The notes under the pieces are model-generated. The model saw only the letters and a list, made by a program, of their open reading frames with translations. It had not been told where the DNA came from and did no database searches. This document shows positions 7,708 to 37,612 of a stretch of 64,000 nt of DNA, piece after piece. This DNA is from a virus. The stretch is taken from positions 1 to 64,000 of the IMG/VR virus record IMGVR_UViG_3300010288_000001, one strand, 5' to 3'. Numbering within the stretch: position 1 is the first letter of the stretch; every line of letters starts with the position of its first letter. A program made the position numbers and the translations under genes.

Positions 7708-8610
7708 TCAAAATTCAATGTAAGGGTTACCCACCTGAAGCACTTTCAGACCAATGCTGCGCCACATACGGGTGACCTGAGGACGGCCATCAATGACCAT
7801 TTTAACGTCATATTTCGGAGCAACATCACACCAGAAGATTTCTGATTTGATGACCGAATCCTTACGCATATCGCCTTCAGCACGCATGAAGAAGTCGCTG
7901 TACCGAATTTCGTGCCGTGCCAGCCACCGTTCGATTTGAGGACGGCAGACGCCATCGCGACCCGACAGAACAACAATCTTCCATTCTCCAGAGCTTTCCA
8001 GAGCTTTGACGATTGCTGCCACTTCTTCATCCAGCTTGTCTTGTTCAACCTTGTCCCATTCAAACGGGCCACGGTCACGATTCATTTGTGCCAACGTGCC
8101 GTCAATATCAACGATGATGGCCTTGGGAGCACCCTTAGTGCCTTCATACTGAGTGACGAATTGCTTGTTCCATTGCTCAAACTGAGATGCCAGAACAGAA
8201 ACGCCCACACCGTTCTTGCGCTTGGCGTCACGTTTAACAGCTTCCTCAAACGAGATAGGAAAGGGTCGAACGTCTACGGTGTAGCCAAATTCCTTGAGCT
8301 TCTGAATCAGACTCTTCCGTCGTTCTTTGTTCAGGTTGGTGTCAGAGATAATAACGTTGGCGCGTGATTGAGCAGCGGCTTCCAGTATTTTGTCTGCGCG
8401 CTCACTCACTTCCTTTTCCCATTTCCAATTCCATTTGTCCCATTCCAGTTCCGCAGCGATACCCTTTTCAATCAAGATACCCCTGCGGATACAATCTCGT
8501 TCAATGCGCTGCCAAATAACGCCCTTGGAGGCCTCAGCTTTGATAAAGTCCGACGCCCAAGTCGACTTACCCGAGGCCGAAACCCCCACGGTCACAATTG
8601 CTCGCATCAT
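7708..8610 (-). CDS. pseT: Polynucleotide 5'-kinase / 3'-phosphatase
   Basis: Repairs cleaved tRNA or nicked ends by adding 5' phosphate and removing 3' phosphate. The kinase P-loop GVSASGKST is at residues 8-16 and the HAD phosphatase nucleophile motif VDIDGTLAQ near 168, followed by SGRDG. The two-domain order and 300-residue length match T4 PseT (301). The RNA ligase partner is not in the window, although a ligase-like protein is encoded at 54216-55106. Confidence 0.95.
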   Translation of the reverse strand: MMRAIVTVGVSASGKSTWASDFIKAEASKGVIWQRIERDCIRRGILIEKGIAAELEWDKWNWKWEKEVSERADKILEAAAQSRANVIISDTNLNKERRKSLIQKLKEFGYTVDVRPFPISFEEAVKRDAKRKNGVGVSVLASQFEQWNKQFVTQYEGTKGAPKAIIVDIDGTLAQMNRDRGPFEWDKVEQDKLDEEVAAIVKALESSGEWKIVVLSGRDGVCRPQIERWLARHEIRYSDFFMRAEGDMRKDSVIKSEIFWCDVAPKYDVKMVIDGRPQVTRMWRSIGLKVLQVGNPYIEF

Positions 8611-10877: not shown

Positions 10878-11719
10878 CTTGCGGATTTTTTCTTGGGGGC
10901 TAGAACTTGTCGTGGGATCTTGTAGCGATCGGCGAAACCTGCCCAATCTAGGTTCCCGTTCTTGGTTCCCACTCCCAAAGTCGGTAGGATCGCCTTCAGA
11001 GTTTCAAATGATTGCTTTCTGATTTCAGGGCTCTTGCACCAAGAGCTCGACGTCCACCCCATGTCCTTTCGGACGGCATTCATCAAAGAATAGACACCCT
11101 TGCCCTTTTTCGTGAGGTTAAGACCGAAGGCAACATCTTCTCCCATGATAACCTTACCTGTCTTTTCATCAAACCAATCATTATAGAAGAATGGCTCTTC
11201 ACCAAACTTCTTGAAATTTCTAATGAACAAACAACATCCTGAGATGTTCGGACGACGCTTGAAGATTAGGTTGTTAGCTAGCACATCCTTCTTTTCGGCA
11301 TAGAAAGCACTGAAAGGTGTTTGTGTAGGATTCAAAGGCTCAAATACATCTACACCTTCTAGGCTTTCAAGAGGAATGTCTTTTAAGATTTGAACAAGGT
11401 TGTCACTATCACAATACTTCTCACCCTCATAGAGAACAATGTCGTTGTCCATCAACAAACAAAAGTCTTCATCCGAATCATAAAAAGCACGGAGCAAGAC
11501 GTTACGAGCGGGCCCGGGCCTATCGGTTTCGCCTCGGGTATTGACGATATACTGGACGTCCTTTCGGAAGTCGTCTTGTTGATATCCTTGGGCATACACC
11601 AAGACGTTCAAACCCTTAGCCAGCCAATAGTCAACCTGTTTGTTATGAATCTCAAGGCGCCTGGCCTTGAGAGAATCATTAGGCAGGTATGAGATGATGT
11701 AAGCGGTATTAAACAACAT
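10859..11719 (-). CDS. Glycosyltransferase, GT-A-like
   Basis: 286 residues with a GT-A layout: the N-terminal strand AYIISYLPNDSLKARR, a DxD metal motif in LLMDNDIVLY (Asp91, Asp93), and a later GEDVAFGLNL acidic segment near 195. It starts 11 nt inside the end of the QueC-like gene, the last of five overlapping genes that begin with a DpdA-like base-exchange enzyme. A role in adding sugar to modified phage DNA is an inference from this context; donor and acceptor are unknown. Confidence 0.7.
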   Translation of the reverse strand: MLFNTAYIISYLPNDSLKARRLEIHNKQVDYWLAKGLNVLVYAQGYQQDDFRKDVQYIVNTRGETDRPGPARNVLLRAFYDSDEDFCLLMDNDIVLYEGEKYCDSDNLVQILKDIPLESLEGVDVFEPLNPTQTPFSAFYAEKKDVLANNLIFKRRPNISGCCLFIRNFKKFGEEPFFYNDWFDEKTGKVIMGEDVAFGLNLTKKGKGVYSLMNAVRKDMGWTSSSWCKSPEIRKQSFETLKAILPTLGVGTKNGNLDWAGFADRYKIPRQVLAPKKKSASILDMM

Positions 11720-12629
11720 GGGTGACTTGAGGAGGTGCGTCTGGATTGTGGGTGCTTGTCGAGGTCTGGTCTTGGTTCATTTCCGTTTGATTAGGCCCGG
11801 ATTCTTGAGGAGTTTCTTGTAGAACTTCTTCCTTAGCTTGAGTAGCCCCATCCGTATAAAGCTCCAAAATTTCCTGCAAAGATTTTCCGCTGTGGTTTCG
11901 GATTAGAGTGGGGATGATCTCTTCCCTACGGAAGCGGTCATAATGGGAATCGTCTTGATTGATTTCAGCAACAATCAAATCGTGGATCAGCTTGCGGTTC
12001 TCGGGGGCTGTCCAAGGATCAACGTTGTAGCTTTCTTCCATGTTTAATTGAGGGAAAATGCCTGCACGGCGCAAACAAACGCCGCAACGACCACAATTTC
12101 CTGCTTCACCGCTCATGCATGAACTCGATGCGAGAATCTCTTGTTGCATACCGTTTTGGCATGCCCACCTTGTTACTTGCAGCTTACCCCACTGGCGTTC
12201 TACGAAAGGAAACACCACCTTCACTTTTCCGAAGGGCGATAGAACATAACTAAGAATATCGTTCTGTCGATGGAGATATTCTAGGTTCTTGTCGGTTGCT
12301 TGGTCATGGATTTCACCCATGAGCGCGCCCATCCAAATCTCGTCAGGCAGATACTTACATGCAGCGATTGTAGCAAACATCATGTTCCTACCAGGAATGA
12401 AGATGTTATTCATGGCGTTGCCCGCCTTGCCTTTGCCTTCGGCTTTGAACCAAGTCATATCATGGATGTGTGCGCCCGGCGGCAATTGCGCCTTTTCTTT
12501 CCAAGCGTAGTCGTGTCCAATGTCAAAATATACGGCGATCACCTCATTGCGAATGTCCTCTTTCGCTAGACGCCACATCACTGTAGAGTCAAGACCACCA
12601 CTGTGCAAAACAACAATCTTCTTACCCAT
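11709..12629 (-). CDS. queC: 7-cyano-7-deazaguanine synthase, QueC-like
   Basis: Makes preQ0 from 7-carboxy-7-deazaguanine using ATP and ammonia. The PP-loop HSGGLDST is at residues 9-16 and the zinc site C171-x7-C179-x2-C182-x2-C185 matches QueC, with RNMMFATIAA between. At 306 residues it is longer than typical QueC (~230). The extra C-terminus ends in a Gln/Thr/Pro-rich low-complexity tail (from ~265). Operon neighbours point to DNA modification rather than tRNA queuosine. Confidence 0.9.
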   Translation of the reverse strand: MGKKIVVLHSGGLDSTVMWRLAKEDIRNEVIAVYFDIGHDYAWKEKAQLPPGAHIHDMTWFKAEGKGKAGNAMNNIFIPGRNMMFATIAACKYLPDEIWMGALMGEIHDQATDKNLEYLHRQNDILSYVLSPFGKVKVVFPFVERQWGKLQVTRWACQNGMQQEILASSSCMSGEAGNCGRCGVCLRRAGIFPQLNMEESYNVDPWTAPENRKLIHDLIVAEINQDDSHYDRFRREEIIPTLIRNHSGKSLQEILELYTDGATQAKEEVLQETPQESGPNQTEMNQDQTSTSTHNPDAPPQVTHVV

Positions 12630-25646: not shown

Positions 25647-25731
25647 GCCCCTATGGAGGAACTGGTAGACTCGGCGGACTCAAAATCCGCTTCCGAAAGG
25701 AGTGCAGGTTCGAACCCTGCTAGGGGCACCA
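25647..25731 (+). tRNA. tRNA-Leu(CAA)
   Basis: Acceptor GCCCCTA / TAGGGGC, anticodon arm GCGGA-CTCAAAA-TCCGC (CAA), long variable arm, T arm GCAGG-TTCGAAC-CCTGC, A discriminator, CCA encoded. 85 nt, class II as expected for Leu. Confidence 0.95.
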
Positions 25732-25793
25732 TTTCAAAACACAAAATTAGAAATGGGTTAGAATCCCGGACCGATATTGTGTTTTGAAATGGT
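25728..25793 (+). repeat. Inverted repeat spanning Leu-Tyr tRNA spacer
   Basis: ACCATTTCAAAACACAA (25728-25744) pairs perfectly with 25777-25793. The 17-bp arm includes the 3' ACCA of tRNA-Leu. The enclosed 32 nt carry GGGTTAGAATCCCGG, which looks like a relic T arm. Confidence 0.8.
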
Positions 25794-25805
25794 GACGACA
25801 AAGAT

Positions 25806-25898
25806 GCGGTAGTTGATGCTATGGCGTGTGCATCCCCGGACTGTAAATCCGGTCCCTCGTGGTAAACACTGTTGGTTCGAATCCAACCTACCGCACCA
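25806..25898 (+). tRNA. tRNA-Tyr(GTA)
   Basis: Acceptor GCGGTAG / CTACCGC, anticodon arm CCGGA-CTGTAAA-TCCGG (GTA), long variable region, T arm GTTGG-TTCGAAT-CCAAC, CCA encoded. The D-arm region is unusually long. Confidence 0.9.
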
Positions 25899-25989
25899 CT
25901 GATTAAAAGTATCATATGCAGTGATCCAACTAACTGTGATACAACTCAGTAGCGAGTTGGTAGCGGTCACCGTAGAAAAATGGAAATCA

Positions 25990-26060
25990 CTCCGAGTGGT
26001 GTAATGGTAGCGTGCGTGGTTTGGGGCCATGAGGCGAAGGTTCGATTCCTTCTTCGGAGA
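25990..26060 (+). tRNA. tRNA-Pro(TGG)
   Basis: Acceptor CTCCGAG / TTCGGAG, anticodon arm CGTGG-TTTGGGG-CCATG (TGG), T arm GAAGG-TTCGATT-CCTTC, A discriminator. CCA is not fully encoded (CAA follows). The D arm is compact. Confidence 0.85.
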
Positions 26061-26070
26061 CAAAAATTTA

Positions 26071-26153
26071 AGGATGGTTACAGCAGTTATTTTAAGATAT
26101 ACTGGTTGAGAGTTTCGATTTCTCTCTTTAATCAAAAAGTAGGAGCCATCCTG
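26071..26153 (+). other. tRNA-like remnant or structured spacer
   Basis: AGGATGG (26071-26077) pairs with CCATCCT (26146-26152) like an acceptor stem. Inside are GAGAG-TTTCGATTT-CTCTC, similar to a T arm, and a weak CAGT...ACTG arm. There are 19 extra nt between the T-like arm and the closing stem and no D arm. A decayed tRNA or a structured precursor spacer. Confidence 0.45.
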
Positions 26154-26164
26154 TTATATTCAAT

Positions 26165-26241
26165 GCGGTTATAGTGTTTAACGGCTAGCACGCGGGTCTT
26201 CCAAATCCGAAGTGTCAGTTCGAATCTGACTAACCGTTCCA
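26165..26241 (+). tRNA. tRNA-Gly(TCC)
   Basis: Acceptor GCGGTTA / TAACCGT, anticodon arm CGGGT-CTTCCAA-ATCCG (TCC), T arm GTCAG-TTCGAAT-CTGAC, T discriminator, CCA encoded. Confidence 0.92.
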
Positions 26242-26252
26242 AAACGCTTAGT

Positions 26253-26328
26253 GGTGACTTTAGTGTAATGATTAGAACTCTATGTTGTGACCTTGGCAGT
26301 ATGGGTTCAAATCCCGTGGGTCATCCCA
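26253..26328 (+). tRNA. tRNA-His(GTG)
   Basis: An extra 5' G at 26253 opposite discriminator C73 is the His identity mark. Acceptor GTGACTT / GGGTCAT with wobbles, anticodon loop TTGTGAC (GTG), T arm ATGGG-TTCAAAT-CCCGT, CCA encoded. The anticodon stem has one T-T mismatch. Confidence 0.85.
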
Positions 26329-26364
26329 AACGTTTTGAATATATACAAAACAATGTAGATTTTT

Positions 26365-26439
26365 GGGGTTGTGGTATAATTGGGAACACAGCGCCCTTGC
26401 AAGGCGCAGTTCGGGGTTCGATTCCCCGCAGCTCCACCA
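26365..26439 (+). tRNA. tRNA-Ala(TGC)
   Basis: Acceptor GGGGTTG / CAGCTCC, anticodon arm GCGCC-CTTGCAA-GGCGC (TGC), T arm CGGGG-TTCGATT-CCCCG, A discriminator, CCA encoded. Confidence 0.93.
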
Positions 26440-26449
26440 AAATTCATTC

Positions 26450-26530
26450 TTTTAACTCAGTTGGTAGAGCAGCCGCCTATGGCATATTGTGCTGGATTAG
26501 CCAAGTGGTCTACGGCAACGAATTTACAAA
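26450..26530 (+). pseudogene. Two truncated tRNA 5' halves
   Basis: TTTAACTCAGTTGGTAGAGC followed by AGCCGCC looks like a tRNA D arm and the start of an anticodon stem, then breaks off. After it, GGATTAGCCAAGTGGTCTAC with GGCAACGAATTTACAAAATG looks like a second 5' half ending in its anticodon loop. No matching 3' halves follow; a homing endonuclease remnant begins 20 nt later. Confidence 0.5.
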
Positions 26531-30065: not shown

Positions 30066-30261
30066 TTTCTTCAGGTGGTTTCACGAAATTGAAGGATTCG
30101 GATTTAGGTCAGAGCGTTTCTATGATGACATTCTGATCTACATGTTTGACGGAGCAAAGGACTTTCAAGCTGCCACTAGAATGATGGTAAAGTGGCTGGA
30201 AGCTGCTTTTGAAGCAGGTGTTAATCAACAAAAAAATTCTTTTTATAAGGCACAAGATTGA
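30001..30261 (+). CDS. Small hypothetical protein
   Basis: 86 residues from ATG 30001 (MKNAFDVERPCSENITEASG), starting inside the previous gene. Helical C-terminal half (DFQAATRMMVKWLEAAFEAG). Function unknown. Confidence 0.6.
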   Translation: MKNAFDVERPCSENITEASGTDFFRWFHEIEGFGFRSERFYDDILIYMFDGAKDFQAATRMMVKWLEAAFEAGVNQQKNSFYKAQD

Positions 30262-30283
30262 TATATAATGAACTAATACCCGG

Positions 30284-30307
30284 TTAAAGATCGTGTATTT
30301 TTCACGC
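30284..30307 (+). repeat. Left arm of 24-nt inverted repeat
   Basis: The reverse complement of this segment matches 32000-32023 at 22 of 24 positions. The two copies bracket the Ro60-like gene. Confidence 0.85.
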
Positions 30308-30311
30308 AATA

Positions 30312-30430
30312 AGGAACGTTTCAGCAAGCAGATCAAGAACCCGACATATTAAAACTTAGATCTAGCATGCCTTTGTATGCTTTTGGGTTAGAGCGTGAGC
30401 CCTCATGAGTGCTTAGTGCACAGCGTTCCT
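30312..30430 (+). ncRNA. Candidate structured RNA upstream of Ro60-like gene
   Basis: AGGAACG (30312-30318) pairs with CGTTCCT (30424-30430), closing a region with internal stems AACCC/GGGTT (30338-30342 with 30385-30389) and AGCAT/ATGCT (30364-30368 with 30377-30381), plus GTGC/GCAC near the 3' side. End-to-end closure and ~120 nt resemble Y RNAs that Ro proteins bind, or it may be a 5' UTR regulator. No coding frame of note. Pairings were found by eye only. Confidence 0.45.
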
Positions 30431-30492
30431 GTATAAAAGGTTGCTTTCAGCAATTCATCTCTTGAAATCATAAACAACCTGCGGAGATTATT

Positions 30493-31932
30493 ATGTCAAA
30501 CGTGGCTTTCACTGCCAATGGAGCAAAGACTCTGGCAACTTCCCTAAACCGTAACGTTGACTTGTTCGCTGTTATCGGTTCTGCACGAAACAATCCTAAC
30601 GACGCACTAGAGAAGTTCATTCTGGCATATGCCGAGGACCCTGTCACTGCGCTACGTATCTTGCTATGGGCGCGTGACGCTCGTGGCGGCCCAGGCGAAC
30701 GTTTGGTATTCCGTACAATCATGGATTGGTTGGCTAAGAACGATAAGCGCGCAGTCGCTTCAATCATGTTGAGCGGTAAGATCCCCGAGCTAGGTCGTTT
30801 TGACGATTTGGTTCCTCTGTTGTGTCATGATGCAATCCCAACCCAAATCCGTTTCCACTTGGCTGAACAACTTAAGGTTGCTATGGAAACCAAATCTGTC
30901 AATGCAGGGTTGATTGCAAAGTGGTTGCCTCGCAAAGGTAAAGAAGCTGCCATCATCCGTGGTTTGATGAAGTTGAGCCCTAAAGCATATCGTAAGCTGT
31001 TGGTTGAAACTTCCAACACTGTTGAGACTAAGATGTGCGCTAAACAATGGGATGAAATCAATTTCTCCCAAGTGCCTTCTGTTGCAATGGCTCGCTATAC
31101 AAACGCTTTTGCCCGTAACGCTAAAGAGAGGTTCTCTGCATACAAGGAAGCTCTTGCAAACGGCAAGGTGAAAGCCAAAGCCTCGGCGTTGTACCCTTAT
31201 GATGTTATTCGAACTGCACAATTCGGCGATGCTGAAGTTGCAGACGCACAATGGAAGGAACTGCCAGACTATCTGGATGGTGCATCCAAGATGCTTCCTA
31301 TGATTGACGTTTCTGGTTCTATGAACTGTCCTGCAGGTGGTTTTGGTAAAGTGTCATGCATGGACGTTGCAATCTCCTTGGGTATCTACTTGGCTGAACG
31401 TCAAGAAGGTCACTTCAAGAACTTGGCGATGACGTTTGAGACTGCTCCGAAGTGGGCAAACATCGATCAGAAGACCATCAAGGAAAAAGTGGATTATGTT
31501 CGTAAATTGCCTTGGGGAGGTTCTACTGATATTCAAGCAGCATTTGATTTGCTGTTGAACTCTGCTGTAGAGAACAATGTACCTCAAAGCGACATGCCTG
31601 AGTACATCATCATCATCTCAGATATGGAATTCAACGCCGCTACGAGTTCGGAAGATTGCTCTGGTAGGAAGAAGATGGTAACAAACTACCAAGCTATCAA
31701 TGAGAAGTTTGAAAGGGCGGGTTATGTTCGTCCTAACATCATCTTCTGGAACGTGAACGCTCGTAGTCAAAACATCCAAGTTAAGTCTGATGAGAACGGA
31801 ACAACTATGATTACTGGGTTCAGCCCTGCAATCATGCAAAGCGTTCTTAAGGCAGAGGAAATCACGCCAGAAAGCGTGATGCTGAAGACAATCAGCTCTC
31901 CTCGTTATGACATTGATGGGCTGACGGTATAA
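30493..31932 (+). CDS. Ro60-related TROVE/vWA-like protein
   Basis: 479 residues. The N-terminal two-thirds look like helical repeats of the TROVE/DUF2828 kind (LLWARDARGGPGERLVFRTI, SGKIPELGRFDDLVPLL, PYDVIRTA). The C-terminal part is a vWA domain with a complete-looking MIDAS: Asp272-x-Ser274-x-Ser276 (DVSGSM), Thr345 (GGSTD) and Asp377 (IIISDMEF). Ro60/Rsr proteins bind Y RNA and misfolded or cleaved RNA. In this phage the gene could serve tRNA or RNA quality control alongside PseT. TROVE versus DUF2828 assignment needs a profile search. Confidence 0.75.
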   Translation: MSNVAFTANGAKTLATSLNRNVDLFAVIGSARNNPNDALEKFILAYAEDPVTALRILLWARDARGGPGERLVFRTIMDWLAKNDKRAVASIMLSGKIPELGRFDDLVPLLCHDAIPTQIRFHLAEQLKVAMETKSVNAGLIAKWLPRKGKEAAIIRGLMKLSPKAYRKLLVETSNTVETKMCAKQWDEINFSQVPSVAMARYTNAFARNAKERFSAYKEALANGKVKAKASALYPYDVIRTAQFGDAEVADAQWKELPDYLDGASKMLPMIDVSGSMNCPAGGFGKVSCMDVAISLGIYLAERQEGHFKNLAMTFETAPKWANIDQKTIKEKVDYVRKLPWGGSTDIQAAFDLLLNSAVENNVPQSDMPEYIIIISDMEFNAATSSEDCSGRKKMVTNYQAINEKFERAGYVRPNIIFWNVNARSQNIQVKSDENGTTMITGFSPAIMQSVLKAEEITPESVMLKTISSPRYDIDGLTV

Positions 31933-31999
31933 GAATAAAATCTTGATTTTAGGAAGGTTGTCTGATATGATGTCTGACAGCCTTTTATAATAAGAGTTA

Positions 32000-32023
32000 G
32001 CGAGAAAAATACACGATCTTTAG
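32000..32023 (+). repeat. Right arm of 24-nt inverted repeat
   Basis: Inverted partner of 30284-30307, 68 nt after the stop of the Ro60-like gene and overlapping the first hairpin of the downstream structured region. Confidence 0.85.
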
Positions 32024-32140
32024 TCGTATATTAAGTCTGGTTTGGGAACCAAGTCGGACTCTAAACAAAAACGGATGGAGGCGTCTGTTGGTAAAACAGA
32101 GTCTACGAAGTCCGAAACCACGAAATCTTTAGTTTCGTGG
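32010..32140 (+). ncRNA. Candidate structured RNA or riboswitch before thyX
   Basis: Ordered stems seen by eye: ACGA-TCTTTAG-TCGT near 32014-32026; GGTT-TGGG-AACC (32039-32050); TCGGACT (32054-32060) with AGTCCGA (32109-32115) enclosing TCTGTT/AACAGA (32084-32100); and a perfect 8-bp hairpin CCACGAAA-TCTTTAG-TTTCGTGG (32118-32140). The loop TCTTTAG occurs twice. No coding frame is convincing. It could be a thyX 5' regulator, a 3' RNA partner of the Ro-like protein, or a processed small RNA. Confidence 0.5.
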
Positions 32141-32167
32141 TAGTTCATTTTGTTACCAAGGAGTTTT

Positions 32168-33094
32168 ATGATTAAAGCAAACATCATCGCAGATTCAATT
32201 TCACCCGCAGGTGTTCGGCTTACAACCTTTGAGTTGGAGTATCCCCGTTTCATTCACGCGGAGCTCCTTACCCACCGAATGTTCTCACGAAACGCAGCAT
32301 CAAGCCGAGCCATTCCCGTCAAGTCTATGATTGAGCTGGTGCAAACAAATCCAGCAAAGCCGGTTCATTGGGGCAAGAACCAACCAGGCATGCAAGCCAA
32401 TGAGGAACTTCAAGAACCCAATCTTGCTCGAGTAAAGTCCCTTTGGGATGAAGCAAGGGGTGAGGCCTGCAGAATTGCCGCTTTAATGAATGAAGAAGGC
32501 GCACATAAGCAAATCATCAATCGTATCCTAGAACCGTTCCAAATCATCAAGGTTGTGATGACGACAACCGAAATTGGTAACTTCTTCTATCTCCGTGCTC
32601 ACAAAGACGCACAACCTGAAATCAAGGCTCTTGCAGAAGCCATGCTAGAAGCTGTAGCTAATTCAGACCCATTTGAACTCGGATACAATGATTGGCATGT
32701 CCCGTATTACATGCAAGGTCATTGGACTGATTCACAAGATCATAGCCTAGAAGAAGCGTTGGCTATCTCCTCATCGTGTTGCGCTCAGGTTTCGTATCGT
32801 AAGCTAGACAAAAGTCTTGAAAAAGCACAAGACATCTATCGTCGTCTAGTGGAGACAAAACCTGTTCATGCTTCTCCTTTTGAACATCAAGCTAAGCCTA
32901 TGGATAAGACTTGTTCCCCATATGAACCAGAGCATTGGAAGGAGTTGGGAGTCACTCATATGACCGCAGACATGCAACTGTGGTCAGGTAACTTCCGTGG
33001 TTGGATTCAACATCGTCAGCTAATCCCGGGTCACGTTTATAATGGAGAACAAGAGTCAACCACTGGGTTGAAGAATGGGTCTTGTGAGGAGTAG
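32168..33094 (+). CDS. thyX: Flavin-dependent thymidylate synthase ThyX
   Basis: Makes dTMP from dUMP with FAD and methylene-THF. The signature is at residues 35-47: THRMFSRNAASSR, equivalent to RHRxxSxNxxSxR with Thr in the first position. Start 32168 (MIKANIIADS) has AAGGAG upstream; the ATG at 32150 is less likely. 308 residues, longer than many ThyX. It complements the dCMP deaminase and RNR genes. Confidence 0.93.
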   Translation: MIKANIIADSISPAGVRLTTFELEYPRFIHAELLTHRMFSRNAASSRAIPVKSMIELVQTNPAKPVHWGKNQPGMQANEELQEPNLARVKSLWDEARGEACRIAALMNEEGAHKQIINRILEPFQIIKVVMTTTEIGNFFYLRAHKDAQPEIKALAEAMLEAVANSDPFELGYNDWHVPYYMQGHWTDSQDHSLEEALAISSSCCAQVSYRKLDKSLEKAQDIYRRLVETKPVHASPFEHQAKPMDKTCSPYEPEHWKELGVTHMTADMQLWSGNFRGWIQHRQLIPGHVYNGEQESTTGLKNGSCEE

Positions 33095-34963: not shown

Positions 34964-35848
34964 ATGGATATCAAGTACAGTGAAATCTTCACATCTTTTC
35001 AAGGCGAAGCGGGTTTCGCTGGCATGCCCACAATCTGGGTTCGGTTCTTCGGCTGCAACCTAGAATGCAACGGGTTCGGTCAGAAGAATCCTATGGACGA
35101 ATCAACCTACGTTCTTCCGTACAAGACAATTGATATCAGCAAGTACAAGACCCTTGAAGAACTGCCTGTTTTCGAGCATGGGTGTGATTCGTCATACTCG
35201 TGGTCTAAGAGGTTTGATTCTCTTGTTCACAAGAAGTCCGTCAGAGAGCTTGTGGACAAACTGATCGCTTTGGGTGAAGCAAACCTTGGTCTCAAGGCCG
35301 ATAATAAAAACGGCTTTTGGAGGCATCCCGTAACCAATCAAAAAGTTCAGCTATGTTTTACAGGTGGCGAACCCATGCTCTGGCAAAAACAGATGAAGGC
35401 GATTTGTGATGAATTCAAGGAGCGTGACATGTCTCCGCTTCAGATCACAATCGAGACGAATGGAACAAAGCCTTTCAAAGACTTCCATAGCATGTCAACA
35501 ACCGCAGACCTCTATCTTAGCGTGTCGCCTAAGCTGTTCTCCGTTTCAGGCGAACGTAATGCAGTGAACGTCAAGCTCTTGGAGGATTATTTTGAGGAAG
35601 CCTCGGGTTGGTTGAAGTTTGTGGTGAACGGCACTGATGCATGTTGGGAAGAGTTAGACATGTATATGAAGCAGATTATCCCCATAATTCCTAGTGATTG
35701 GCACATCTGGGTAATGCCTGTTGGTGCAACGAAGGAACAACAAGAAGGTTCTACCATTGCGAAAATCTCGAATGAGGCAATGAAGCGTGGCTATATGGTC
35801 GCAACTAGAAACCATACATACGTATTTGGGAATGTTATCGGCTCATGA
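34964..35848 (+). CDS. queE: QueE-like radical SAM enzyme, unusual cysteine spacing
   Basis: 7-carboxy-7-deazaguanine synthase family. The N-terminus (SEIFTSFQGEAGFAGMPTIWVRFFGCNLECN) is typical QueE. The Fe-S cysteines appear to be C31, C35 and C74 (HGCDSSYSW, equivalent to the usual WCDTxYxW), so the third ligand is displaced by an insertion of about 36 residues. The SAM-binding GGEP is in LCFTGGEPMLW near 132. 294 residues, longer than E. coli QueE. Works with FolE and QueC to supply preQ0. Confidence 0.88.
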   Translation: MDIKYSEIFTSFQGEAGFAGMPTIWVRFFGCNLECNGFGQKNPMDESTYVLPYKTIDISKYKTLEELPVFEHGCDSSYSWSKRFDSLVHKKSVRELVDKLIALGEANLGLKADNKNGFWRHPVTNQKVQLCFTGGEPMLWQKQMKAICDEFKERDMSPLQITIETNGTKPFKDFHSMSTTADLYLSVSPKLFSVSGERNAVNVKLLEDYFEEASGWLKFVVNGTDACWEELDMYMKQIIPIIPSDWHIWVMPVGATKEQQEGSTIAKISNEAMKRGYMVATRNHTYVFGNVIGS

Positions 35849-36339
35849 TTGAGGAAAAGTCAATGCAGATTGTAGAAAAGCTGATTCGTAATGGTTGGAC
35901 GGGAAAATCTGGACTTTATGTGAGCGTTGTGCCAAACAAACGTTCCAAAGACATCATCACGGCAGTTGCTGATGTCTTGGGAACAGAATGCAATTATGAT
36001 GATCTACATTGCATTGTGATGTATAGCAAGTACGACTCGCCCGCTGAAAAATCATACCCGAAAACAAAAACCTTCAGAGCAAGAATGAAGGACATCCAGC
36101 TCTACGGTAAGAACGAAGACTCTCTCGTTATTACCTTGGAAAGCGCCGATTTACAGGCGGAACATGAAAGGCTTAAGAAACTAGGGGCGAAACACTCCCG
36201 GGAATTCTATTCACCCCACGTTACAATTCAAACAGGCAAGCCTTGGGACGACTATTACCTTGAGAACGTCATTGATTCAATCAACGGGCGTGAGCTTGTT
36301 TTCAATGGGTATAGTTGGAACGATGTTGTCGAGGATTGA
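35845..36339 (+). CDS. 2H phosphoesterase, Acb1-like candidate
   Basis: 164 residues. Two His motifs 70 residues apart, H55-C-I57 in DDLHCIVMYSKY and H125-V-T127 in YSPHVTIQTG, match the spacing of T4 Acb1 (gene 57B; H44 and H113). Acb1 degrades cyclic nucleotide signals of CBASS defence. The first motif has Ile where HxT/S is usual, so activity or specificity may differ. Start 35845 overlaps queE (ATGA), but ATG 35863 has a better ribosome site. Confidence 0.7.
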   Translation: MIEEKSMQIVEKLIRNGWTGKSGLYVSVVPNKRSKDIITAVADVLGTECNYDDLHCIVMYSKYDSPAEKSYPKTKTFRARMKDIQLYGKNEDSLVITLESADLQAEHERLKKLGAKHSREFYSPHVTIQTGKPWDDYYLENVIDSINGRELVFNGYSWNDVVED

Positions 36340-36931: not shown

Positions 36932-37612
36932 ATGGCATTTAACAAAACAAAGACGGACCCAAGTCTGGGCCAAGCAGTAGAGAATCATCTACGTTCATTG
37001 GGTATTCATACGCCTACCACAAACAAACTGCAAATTTCCGAACAAGACAAGATTTCAGTCATCGAACCTCTCATTCGAGATGTTATGATTTTCCTCGGTC
37101 TTGATTTGACCGATGACAGTCTAGTCGATACTCCTAAGCGAGTGGCTAAGATGTTTGTCCTCGAGAAGTTTTGGGGTCTCAAGCCAGAGAACTTCCCGAA
37201 ATGTACGACAATCGAAAACAAGATGCACTATGATGAAATGGTCGTGGAACGCAACATCCGAGTCATGTCTGATTGTGAGCATCACCTTGTGCAAATTGAC
37301 GGTCTGGCAACTGTAGCATACATTCCCGACAAGAAGGTTCTGGGTCTATCGAAGATGAACCGTATTGTGGAATATTTCAGCCGCCGTCCTCAGGTTCAAG
37401 AACGCCTGACCCAACAGATTGCGGAAACTCTGAAATTCATTCTGGAAACAGATGATGTGGCAGTTGCAATCAAAGCACGTCACTATTGTGTCATTAGTCG
37501 TGGAGTCGAGGATCAAAACTCTGAAACTGTGACTAGTTACATTAGCGGTGCCTTCAAGAGCAATCCGACGGTGCGCGCTGAATTCATGGCGATTGCAAAC
37601 GGCATGAACTAA
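36932..37612 (+). CDS. folE: GTP cyclohydrolase I
   Basis: Makes dihydroneopterin triphosphate, the first step toward preQ0. Zinc ligands are C115 and H118 in SDCEHHLV and C186 in HYCVISRGVED. DTPKRVAKM and GLSKMNRIVEYFSRRPQVQE are diagnostic. 226 residues, the normal bacterial size. With QueE, QueC and DpdA in the same genome its product most likely goes to deazaguanine synthesis rather than folate. Confidence 0.95.
   Translation: MAFNKTKTDPSLGQAVENHLRSLGIHTPTTNKLQISEQDKISVIEPLIRDVMIFLGLDLTDDSLVDTPKRVAKMFVLEKFWGLKPENFPKCTTIENKMHYDEMVVERNIRVMSDCEHHLVQIDGLATVAYIPDKKVLGLSKMNRIVEYFSRRPQVQERLTQQIAETLKFILETDDVAVAIKARHYCVISRGVEDQNSETVTSYISGAFKSNPTVRAEFMAIANGMN

Follow-up and report, generated by a model that had tools for sequence, protein, structure and literature searches.

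The Ro-like gene and its product

The stretch of DNA analyzed here, positions 1 to 64,000 of the IMG/VR virus record IMGVR_UViG_3300010288_000001 (referred to below as the window), carries a gene for a Ro-like protein together with hairpin RNA elements of a kind that recurs beside related genes in other phages and in bacteria. The features central to this locus are as follows:

30493–31932, plus strand: Ro-like gene with DUF2828 and DUF7788 (vWA) domains; intact open reading frame of 479 aa, identified by profiles and a predicted Ro60 fold
30438–30481, plus strand: hairpin RNA element with the motif UUUCAGCAA, just 5' of the gene start region; 30.3 bits with covariance model R1 (see below)
26071–26153, plus strand: hairpin RNA element with the motif UUACAGCAG, between tRNA-Pro and tRNA-Gly; 29.2 bits with R1
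30312–30430, plus strand: longer hairpin, a 9-bp stem followed by UUUCAGCAA; fold z-score −2.24, candidate only
25647–26439, plus strand: cluster of six tRNAs which holds the second hairpin, from a tRNA search

The 479-aa product was matched by the Pfam families DUF7788, a vWA-type domain (PF25043, 9.3e-46), and DUF2828 (PF11443, 7.7e-29), the score for the latter being 101.2 bits against a cut-off of 29, which places the protein within this family. It was also matched by PHROG 850, labelled 'RNA-binding protein' (3.5e-145), and PF25045 (vWA_Ro60) gave a sub-threshold hit (0.0068, 16.8 bits with a cut-off of 27.7). An earlier note on this DNA had called the gene TROVE/vWA-like and proposed a check against TROVE and DUF2828. 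The vWA part of this description holds, with a Ro60 fold predicted in addition, and DUF2828 was matched; however, TROVE (PF05731) was not among the four Pfam families found for the protein at E ≤ 0.1, and had no match across the 70,651-base record in a search in which the control, Deinobacterium chartae, did match. Residues D272, S274, S276, T345 and D377 are invariant among 18 aligned homologues. We take these to be the positions (DxSxS, T and D) of a metal ion-dependent adhesion site (MIDAS), in line with the complete-looking MIDAS noted earlier.

A structural comparison with Ro60 and Rsr had also been proposed earlier. With an AlphaFold2 model built with 18 homologues (predicted local distance difference test 78.3, predicted template modelling score 0.74), the top ten Foldseek matches in the PDB were all Ro60/TROVE structures, led by 9kop and 9l5y (Thermus-phage Ro60). 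VIA-align gave a Z score of 17.4 over 400 residues to 9kop and of 13.7 to Rsr of D. radiodurans (2nvo), with 10.1 for the best non-Ro chain. A PDB sequence search using the profile of the protein retrieved no Ro60 chain, and the link to Ro60 therefore rests on fold and not on sequence. The model predicts the whole Ro60 architecture (helical ring and vWA domain) for the 479-aa protein, and the DUF2828 protein is thus predicted to be Ro60-shaped while belonging to a sequence family separate from TROVE.

Relatives were found in 682 of 50,697 phage records, all with less than 60% identity and, in 680 cases, with a query coverage of at least 80%, and mycobacteriophage records label such relatives 'Ro-like RNA binding protein'. 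A Ro60-like structure is noted for a mycobacteriophage protein in excerpts from a 2025 paper (PMC12363180). The protein is already known in phages; the earlier note had regarded a phage-borne Ro ribonucleoprotein for RNA quality control or defence escape as new. It should also be noted that two occurrences are not independent evidence: locus L001 and the window disagree at a single base in 11,437, and an identical protein lies on a 128,635-base contig (L047) filed under an Anaerolineae metagenome-assembled genome (MAG), which is perhaps a larger assembly of the window's phage binned with a bacterium.

A family of hairpin RNAs beside DUF2828 genes

In the flanks of relatives of the gene, the sequence CAGCA(A) recurs near the gene in several copies per locus, most of which are hairpin-capable. 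The module consists of a 7-bp stem, the 5' strand of which runs into UUACAGCAA and the 3' strand of which ends in CUG(U). The covariance model R1 was trained on 36 hairpins from IMG/VR contigs and Aeromonas phage 4_4572, and its stem shows compensatory changes at all 7 pairs. The window was left out of its construction and both hairpins of the window match it, namely 30438–30481 (E 0.00028), which ends 12 nt short of the start codon (30493), and 26071–26153 (E 0.00048), which is edged by AAGG at its 5' side (26070) and CCUGUU at its 3' side. These were the only two good matches in a scan of the window, the next best reaching 16 bits (E 0.41), and a near-identical 90,767-base contig holds the same two and none further. 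The longer hairpin of 119 nt (30312–30430) was left unscored by R1, with no tRNA-like arms recognised in it.

Three checks avoid the circularity that comes with the helix search by which the R1 hairpins were picked: motif density, a stem test and whole-record placement. In 36 loci, the density of ACAGCAA is 1.27 per kb in the sense orientation up to 1 kb from the gene, where 90 copies compare with 2 on the opposite strand; in the remainder of these loci it is 0.18 per kb. The stem test, done without helix selection, covered 79 bacterial loci (the best 80 of 461 confirmed stretches, with L047 left out), none of which had contributed to R1, and ten held-out phage loci. For 109 of 165 motifs in the bacterial loci, the 7 nt that precede the motif pair over their full length with a stretch downstream, compared with 10.7% for strands swapped between loci; in the phage loci the figures are 18 of 26 and 5.8%. 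Across whole records, all 31 R1 matches at E ≤ 0.01 fall on the strand of the gene and no more than 12 kb away from it, where 3.5 would be expected; for 23 of them the distance is at most 2 kb, against an expectation of 0.6. Three bacterial genomes are omitted from the placement counts (1 of 41 rows for R1, E 0.054; 4 of 56 rows for the Rfam model RF01414 discussed below, best E 0.078), as their contigs could not be assigned to loci by number. None of four phages without the gene, chosen as negative controls for sharing the thyX region of the window, had an R1 match.

An R1 match of at least 20 bits was present in 29 of 42 sources. The held-out phages with a match infect Escherichia, Campylobacter, Vibrio, Enterococcus, Bacillus, Listeria, Staphylococcus and Mycobacterium, and hairpins beside DUF2828 genes are found in phages of both Gram-negative and Gram-positive hosts. 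Sources lacking such a match include DLP_6, Munch, KVP40, Aeh1 and phiAS5, the last three of which have a weaker whole-record match 7–11 kb upstream on the gene's strand. Felixounavirus, Staphylococcus and Mycobacterium phages also carry copies on the downstream side of the gene. In the bacterial loci, 111 of 114 R1 matches (E ≤ 1) share the strand of the gene and are at most 1 kb from it, in 59 of the 79 loci. By record title these loci are mostly from Clostridia, Erysipelotrichaceae and Synergistaceae, with a few spirochaetes and one Lokiarchaeota MAG, and some of the contigs are short and may be phage.

Rfam does not annotate the putative UUACAGCAA RNA partner in the loci scanned. A large RNA resembling ROOL was seen 1 kb upstream of the DUF2828 gene of Listeria phage LMSP-25 (L040, 922–1473; 88.5 bits with a gathering score of 99.1). 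A direct MAFFT alignment of diverse hairpins misplaced the 3' strand and was not used, and a sequence-only model (R2), with 11 matches at E ≤ 0.01 in 36 sources, was taken no further.

tRNA-like relatives and comparison with Rsr/YrlA

Most members of the family are short hairpins without tRNA features. In some relatives the module is combined with parts of a tRNA in one of two layouts. In layout (a) the module forms the ends of the RNA, with a T-arm, capped acceptor and D-arm inside, as in a tRNA turned inside out; it was found in phages EC6, Wigglewiggle and KP2025, and in Blautia. In layout (b) the tRNA has normal ends and keeps the usual order of acceptor, D-arm and T-arm, while the module takes the place of the anticodon arm. 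Per-class counts, which were made with permissive rules, carry no weight here. Sixteen Rfam tRNA matches exceeded 100 nt, and inspection by eye found the CAGCA core directly after the layout-(b) hairpin in 12, the remaining four being one variant (Aeh1, ACCGCAA) and three without a CAGCA core. Two layout-(b) RNAs of Cronobacter phage S13 are annotated as tRNA-Ser and tRNA-OTHER, and one of Citrobacter phage Ci1 as a pseudo-tRNA. The annotated tRNA-Val of Aeromonas phage Aeh1 (L029, 7657–7775) is a tRNA-like RNA in which the variant module UUUACCGCAA replaces the anticodon arm, and the motif may have diverged in the group of this phage.

A tRNA-like module enclosed by the Ro stem, as present in relatives, was not recognised in the window, nor was any other tRNA-like partner RNA. 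Seventeen pattern matches were unconvincing by eye. Candidates at the junction of tRNA-Ala with a stray D-arm gave weak matches to YrlA (RF02553, 19.8 bits, below the gathering score of 69) and to permuted transfer-messenger RNA (24.5 bits) and were rejected; the D-arm-like stretch itself (26440–26530, plus strand) is perhaps a decayed tRNA. A strong hairpin with the T-arm-like sequence GGGUUAGAAUCCC inside it lies between tRNA-Leu and tRNA-Tyr (25732–25795, plus strand; z −2.93 for 25732–25806). Among the relatives, the best scores against RF02553 were 41.4 and 40.1 bits, also below gathering.

The system is like Rsr/YrlA (rsr-yrlBA-rtcBA) in the predicted Ro60 fold of its protein, in RNA genes which adjoin the protein gene, in the permuted tRNA module (T-arm, capped acceptor, D-arm) of its relatives and in the RtcB gene that adjoins the DUF2828 gene in many bacteria. 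Unlike Rsr, its protein matches DUF2828/DUF7788 and not TROVE. Unlike YrlA, the printed RF02553 consensus of which is without CAGCAA, the DUF2828-associated RNAs are mostly short hairpins and are often arrayed. Fold and protein family are shared with the mycobacteriophage 'Ro-like RNA binding protein' (PHROG 850), and the fold is shared with 9l5y (Ro60 of Thermus phage phiLo) and with the jumbo-phage TROVE proteins as portrayed in excerpts of the literature. Excerpts of the literature on phage Ro-like proteins do not describe UUACAGCAA RNAs, and a literature search found no paper on 9l5y. Chen et al., writing in RNA in 2014, reportedly identified Y RNAs close to Ro60 in more than 250 species of bacteria and phages.

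Resemblance to dictyostelid Class I RNAs

As described in excerpts of Kjellin et al. (2021; PMC7919456), the Class I RNAs of D. discoideum are 42–65 nt long, with a short stem that joins the ends, an 11-nt motif beside this stem, and AAG and CUGU ends. According to the same excerpts they are freely expressed in amoebae, one is bound by Rnp1A, a protein with an RNA recognition motif, and no Class I RNA was found outside Dictyostelia, the prokaryote named being Myxococcus xanthus. The consensus of RF01414 reads GaUcuCCUUACAGCAAU...GagAuCUG.

The gathering score of RF01414 (41.5) was reached in none of 21 whole records, the best score being 31.2. The 16 matches at E ≤ 0.01, all below gathering, come from eight of these records; in 15 cases a DUF2828 gene on the same strand is no more than 2 kb away (0.45 expected), and in all 16 no more than 5 kb (1.1 expected). 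With looser cut-offs, this 2-kb same-strand placement holds for 23 of 27 kept rows at E ≤ 0.1 and for 30 of 52 at E ≤ 1. Control genomes had a match in 7 of 14 cases at E ≤ 1, none above the cut-off; single weak matches therefore mean little, and the argument is one of placement. The window hairpin 30438–30481 scored 16.2 bits (E 0.114).

The anatomy of the Class I RNAs (terminal stem, CUUACAGCAA motif, CUGU end) is found in the model alignments and in alignment A6, the copies of the window being one base off, and of 127 paired motifs at least 71 have a stem ending in UGU. The two sets of RNAs have in common the short terminal stem, CCUUACAGCAA beside its 5' strand, an A-rich variable interior and the CUG(U) end. 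They differ in that the phage and bacterial RNAs stay below the RF01414 gathering score and in the amoebal partner, which excerpts of PMC7919456 report to be Rnp1A.

It is likely that the DUF2828-associated hairpins and the Class I RNAs are homologous, with a convergent Ro-like docking site as a possible alternative. Titles and abstract openings in the literature gave no link of DUF2828 to an RNA family and none of Class I RNAs to Ro60; the four papers found to mention DUF2828 concern plants, going by their titles. A broader proposal is that DUF2828 and the UUACAGCAA hairpins form a second lineage of Ro ribonucleoproteins (RNPs), parallel to TROVE/Y RNA and spread over phages, bacteria and eukaryotes, in which Class I RNAs would be the eukaryotic branch, acting as the Y-like RNAs of a Ro-like protein; we hold the chances for and against this to be evenly balanced. 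If true, it would offer a testable answer as to the function and origin of the Class I RNAs of dictyostelids.

RNA repair context

An RtcB-like gene was present in the fetched flanks of 30 of the 79 bacterial loci, in all 30 on the gene's strand, and RtcB accounted for four of ten downstream neighbours tested in bacteria. A PF09414 or PF09511 ligase above cut-off was detected in 13 of 17 named phage records; large phages often carry such RNA ligases anyway. The genomic link of the DUF2828 gene to repair is direct in bacteria and looser in phages.

Within the window, a PseT-like protein and a tRNA array had been pointed out earlier, and both are present. The tRNA search found six clustered tRNAs and one elsewhere, and the kinase gene is as follows:

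7708–8610, minus strand: PseT-like polynucleotide kinase, putative RNA-repair partner; PHROG 505, 6.4e-88

A ligase-like protein had also been proposed and its gene, at 35845–36339 (plus strand), does carry the PHROG 755 label RNA ligase; however, Pfam identifies the product as an Acb1-like 2H phosphoesterase (PF23474, 3.4e-15). It is likely to be a protein against the cyclic-oligonucleotide-based anti-phage signalling system (anti-CBASS) rather than a ligase.

Interpretation of the locus

It is proposed that the locus encodes a Ro-RNP of the DUF2828 branch with Class I-like RNAs, for RNA surveillance or repair, a statement which as a whole is judged somewhat better than even. That the Ro-like protein has these hairpin RNAs as its partners is considered highly probable, and for a role in repair or surveillance the odds appear level. 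We infer binding and function here from an anatomy established by computation. The core of the earlier reading, a Ro RNP that has RNA partners and is tied to repair, is partly supported: the predicted fold, the conserved hairpins and the bacterial RtcB genes fit it, but most of its supporting RNAs are others than those it had named. Conserved covariation was found in one stretch of the 5' flank (30438–30481), the other supported RNA (26071–26153) being one that it had not named.

In the proposed mechanism the module would dock on the Ro-like ring as the stem of a Y RNA does on Ro60, and the hairpin RNAs would occupy or gate the ring and so control access to it; excerpts on Rsr, PNPase and YrlA provide the analogy for this (PMC7790460, PMC8058203). 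The tRNA-like versions may add a tRNA-shaped handle, serving as a tether or as a tRNA mimic. A free ring could collect damaged or misfolded RNA, for example tRNAs cut by host defence nucleases, which would then be passed on to repair (by RtcB in bacteria, by kinase and ligases in phages) or to decay. The hairpin adjoining the gene start may also provide autoregulation.

A number of observations weigh against this proposal. Both motifs of the window are one base off UUACAGCAA, the fold z-scores of its hairpins are modest (−1.41 for 30436–30482, −1.84 for 26062–26164), and a simple helix test failed to single out the motifs at 30322 (15 of 20 shuffles as good) and at 30448 (5 of 20). The covariation of R1 is partly circular, its training hairpins having been picked by a helix search, and 8 of the 31 whole-record matches come from the phage that supplied seven training sequences. 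Thirteen of the 42 sources have no R1 match of at least 20 bits, three of them being fragments that start inside the gene. The matches in Straboviridae sit 7–11 kb upstream of the gene, whole record W13 gave no match at E ≤ 0.1 and the sole match of W15 is 186 kb off. As regards repair, RtcB was found in only 1 of the 17 named phage records, and the window's record, which is possibly incomplete, yielded neither RtcB nor a ligase of the PF09414 or PF09511 family.

Two other explanations of the hairpins were weighed. The RNAs could be tRNA decoys or sponges for host anticodon nucleases or tRNA-handling enzymes, with the protein only stabilising them and no repair involved. Their tight mix with tRNA genes and the tRNA-shaped members with a replaced anticodon arm would fit this, and excerpts of PMC7790460 suggest that the tRNA-like domain of YrlA may competitively inhibit an anticodon nuclease; but most members are short hairpins without tRNA features, none in the window was recognised as tRNA-like, and RtcB stands beside the gene in the bacterial loci counted above, so that this explanation is deemed unlikely. 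The hairpins could also be only cis-acting leaders, through which the protein represses its own translation from a hairpin in the 5' untranslated region without any free RNA partner. The nearest hairpin does end at 30481, immediately ahead of the start codon, and 109 of the 114 bacterial matches lie within 1 kb upstream of the gene. Against this stand the several copies per locus, the downstream copies in Felixounavirus, Staphylococcus and Mycobacterium phages, copies 3–11 kb away in the window and in Straboviridae, the fusions to tRNA-like RNAs and, following excerpts of PMC7919456, the fact that amoebae express the look-alike Class I RNAs as free molecules. A purely cis-acting role is accordingly rated quite improbable, and partnership of the hairpins with the Ro-like protein is the reading retained.

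Inverted repeat, 3' segment and other features of the window

The following features also surround the gene:

30274–30307, strand not assigned: left arm of the inverted repeat, outside the conserved system
32000–32033, strand not assigned: right arm of the inverted repeat, outside the conserved system
31995–32170, plus strand: well-folding 3' segment without the family motif; fold z −3.50 against shuffles
30242–30269, plus strand: promoter-like site 5' of the upstream hairpins; 10 of 12 consensus positions, consensus match only

Sites of the latter type numbered 19 in the region, compared with 11.5 in shuffles. The inverted repeat reported in the earlier note is real and extends to 34 nt at 85%, with an exact core of 19 nt that exceeds the shuffled maximum of 12; however, in 26 other loci no repeat within 300 nt on each side of the gene rose above its own shuffles, and as a conserved boundary it was rejected, being present in 1 of 27 loci. 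The foldable flanks that had been described are likewise confirmed in part: the 5' hairpin 30438–30481 has model support and the 3' side folds strongly, but 32010–32140, which had been put forward as a partner RNA, was rejected since it has neither CAGCAA nor an R1 match, and a terminator-like hairpin lies at 32117–32141 within the 3' segment. That the repeats and this 3' segment are working parts of the system, for which the exact core and the strong fold would speak, was already disfavoured and is very improbable given a repeat without counterpart in the other loci and a segment without motif or model match that is in part terminator-like.

Elsewhere in the window, genes for a QueC-like protein (11709–12629, minus strand), a QueE-like protein (34964–35848, plus strand) and GTP cyclohydrolase I (36932–37612, plus strand) were noted, which by their sequence assignments possibly belong to a 7-deazaguanine DNA-modification pathway.

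Significance

Relative to the searchable literature, the proposed phage Ro RNP stands out by its unexpected probable link to the Class I RNAs of amoebae. Hundreds of phage proteins now annotated as 'hypothetical' or 'RNA-binding' would gain a defined RNA partner, and odd phage 'pseudo-tRNAs' would be re-read as hybrids of a Ro-RNA module and a tRNA. In bacterial genomes the DUF2828 branch of Ro proteins would be placed next to RtcB. Should binding be confirmed, the connection to the amoebal Class I RNAs would hold high interest.

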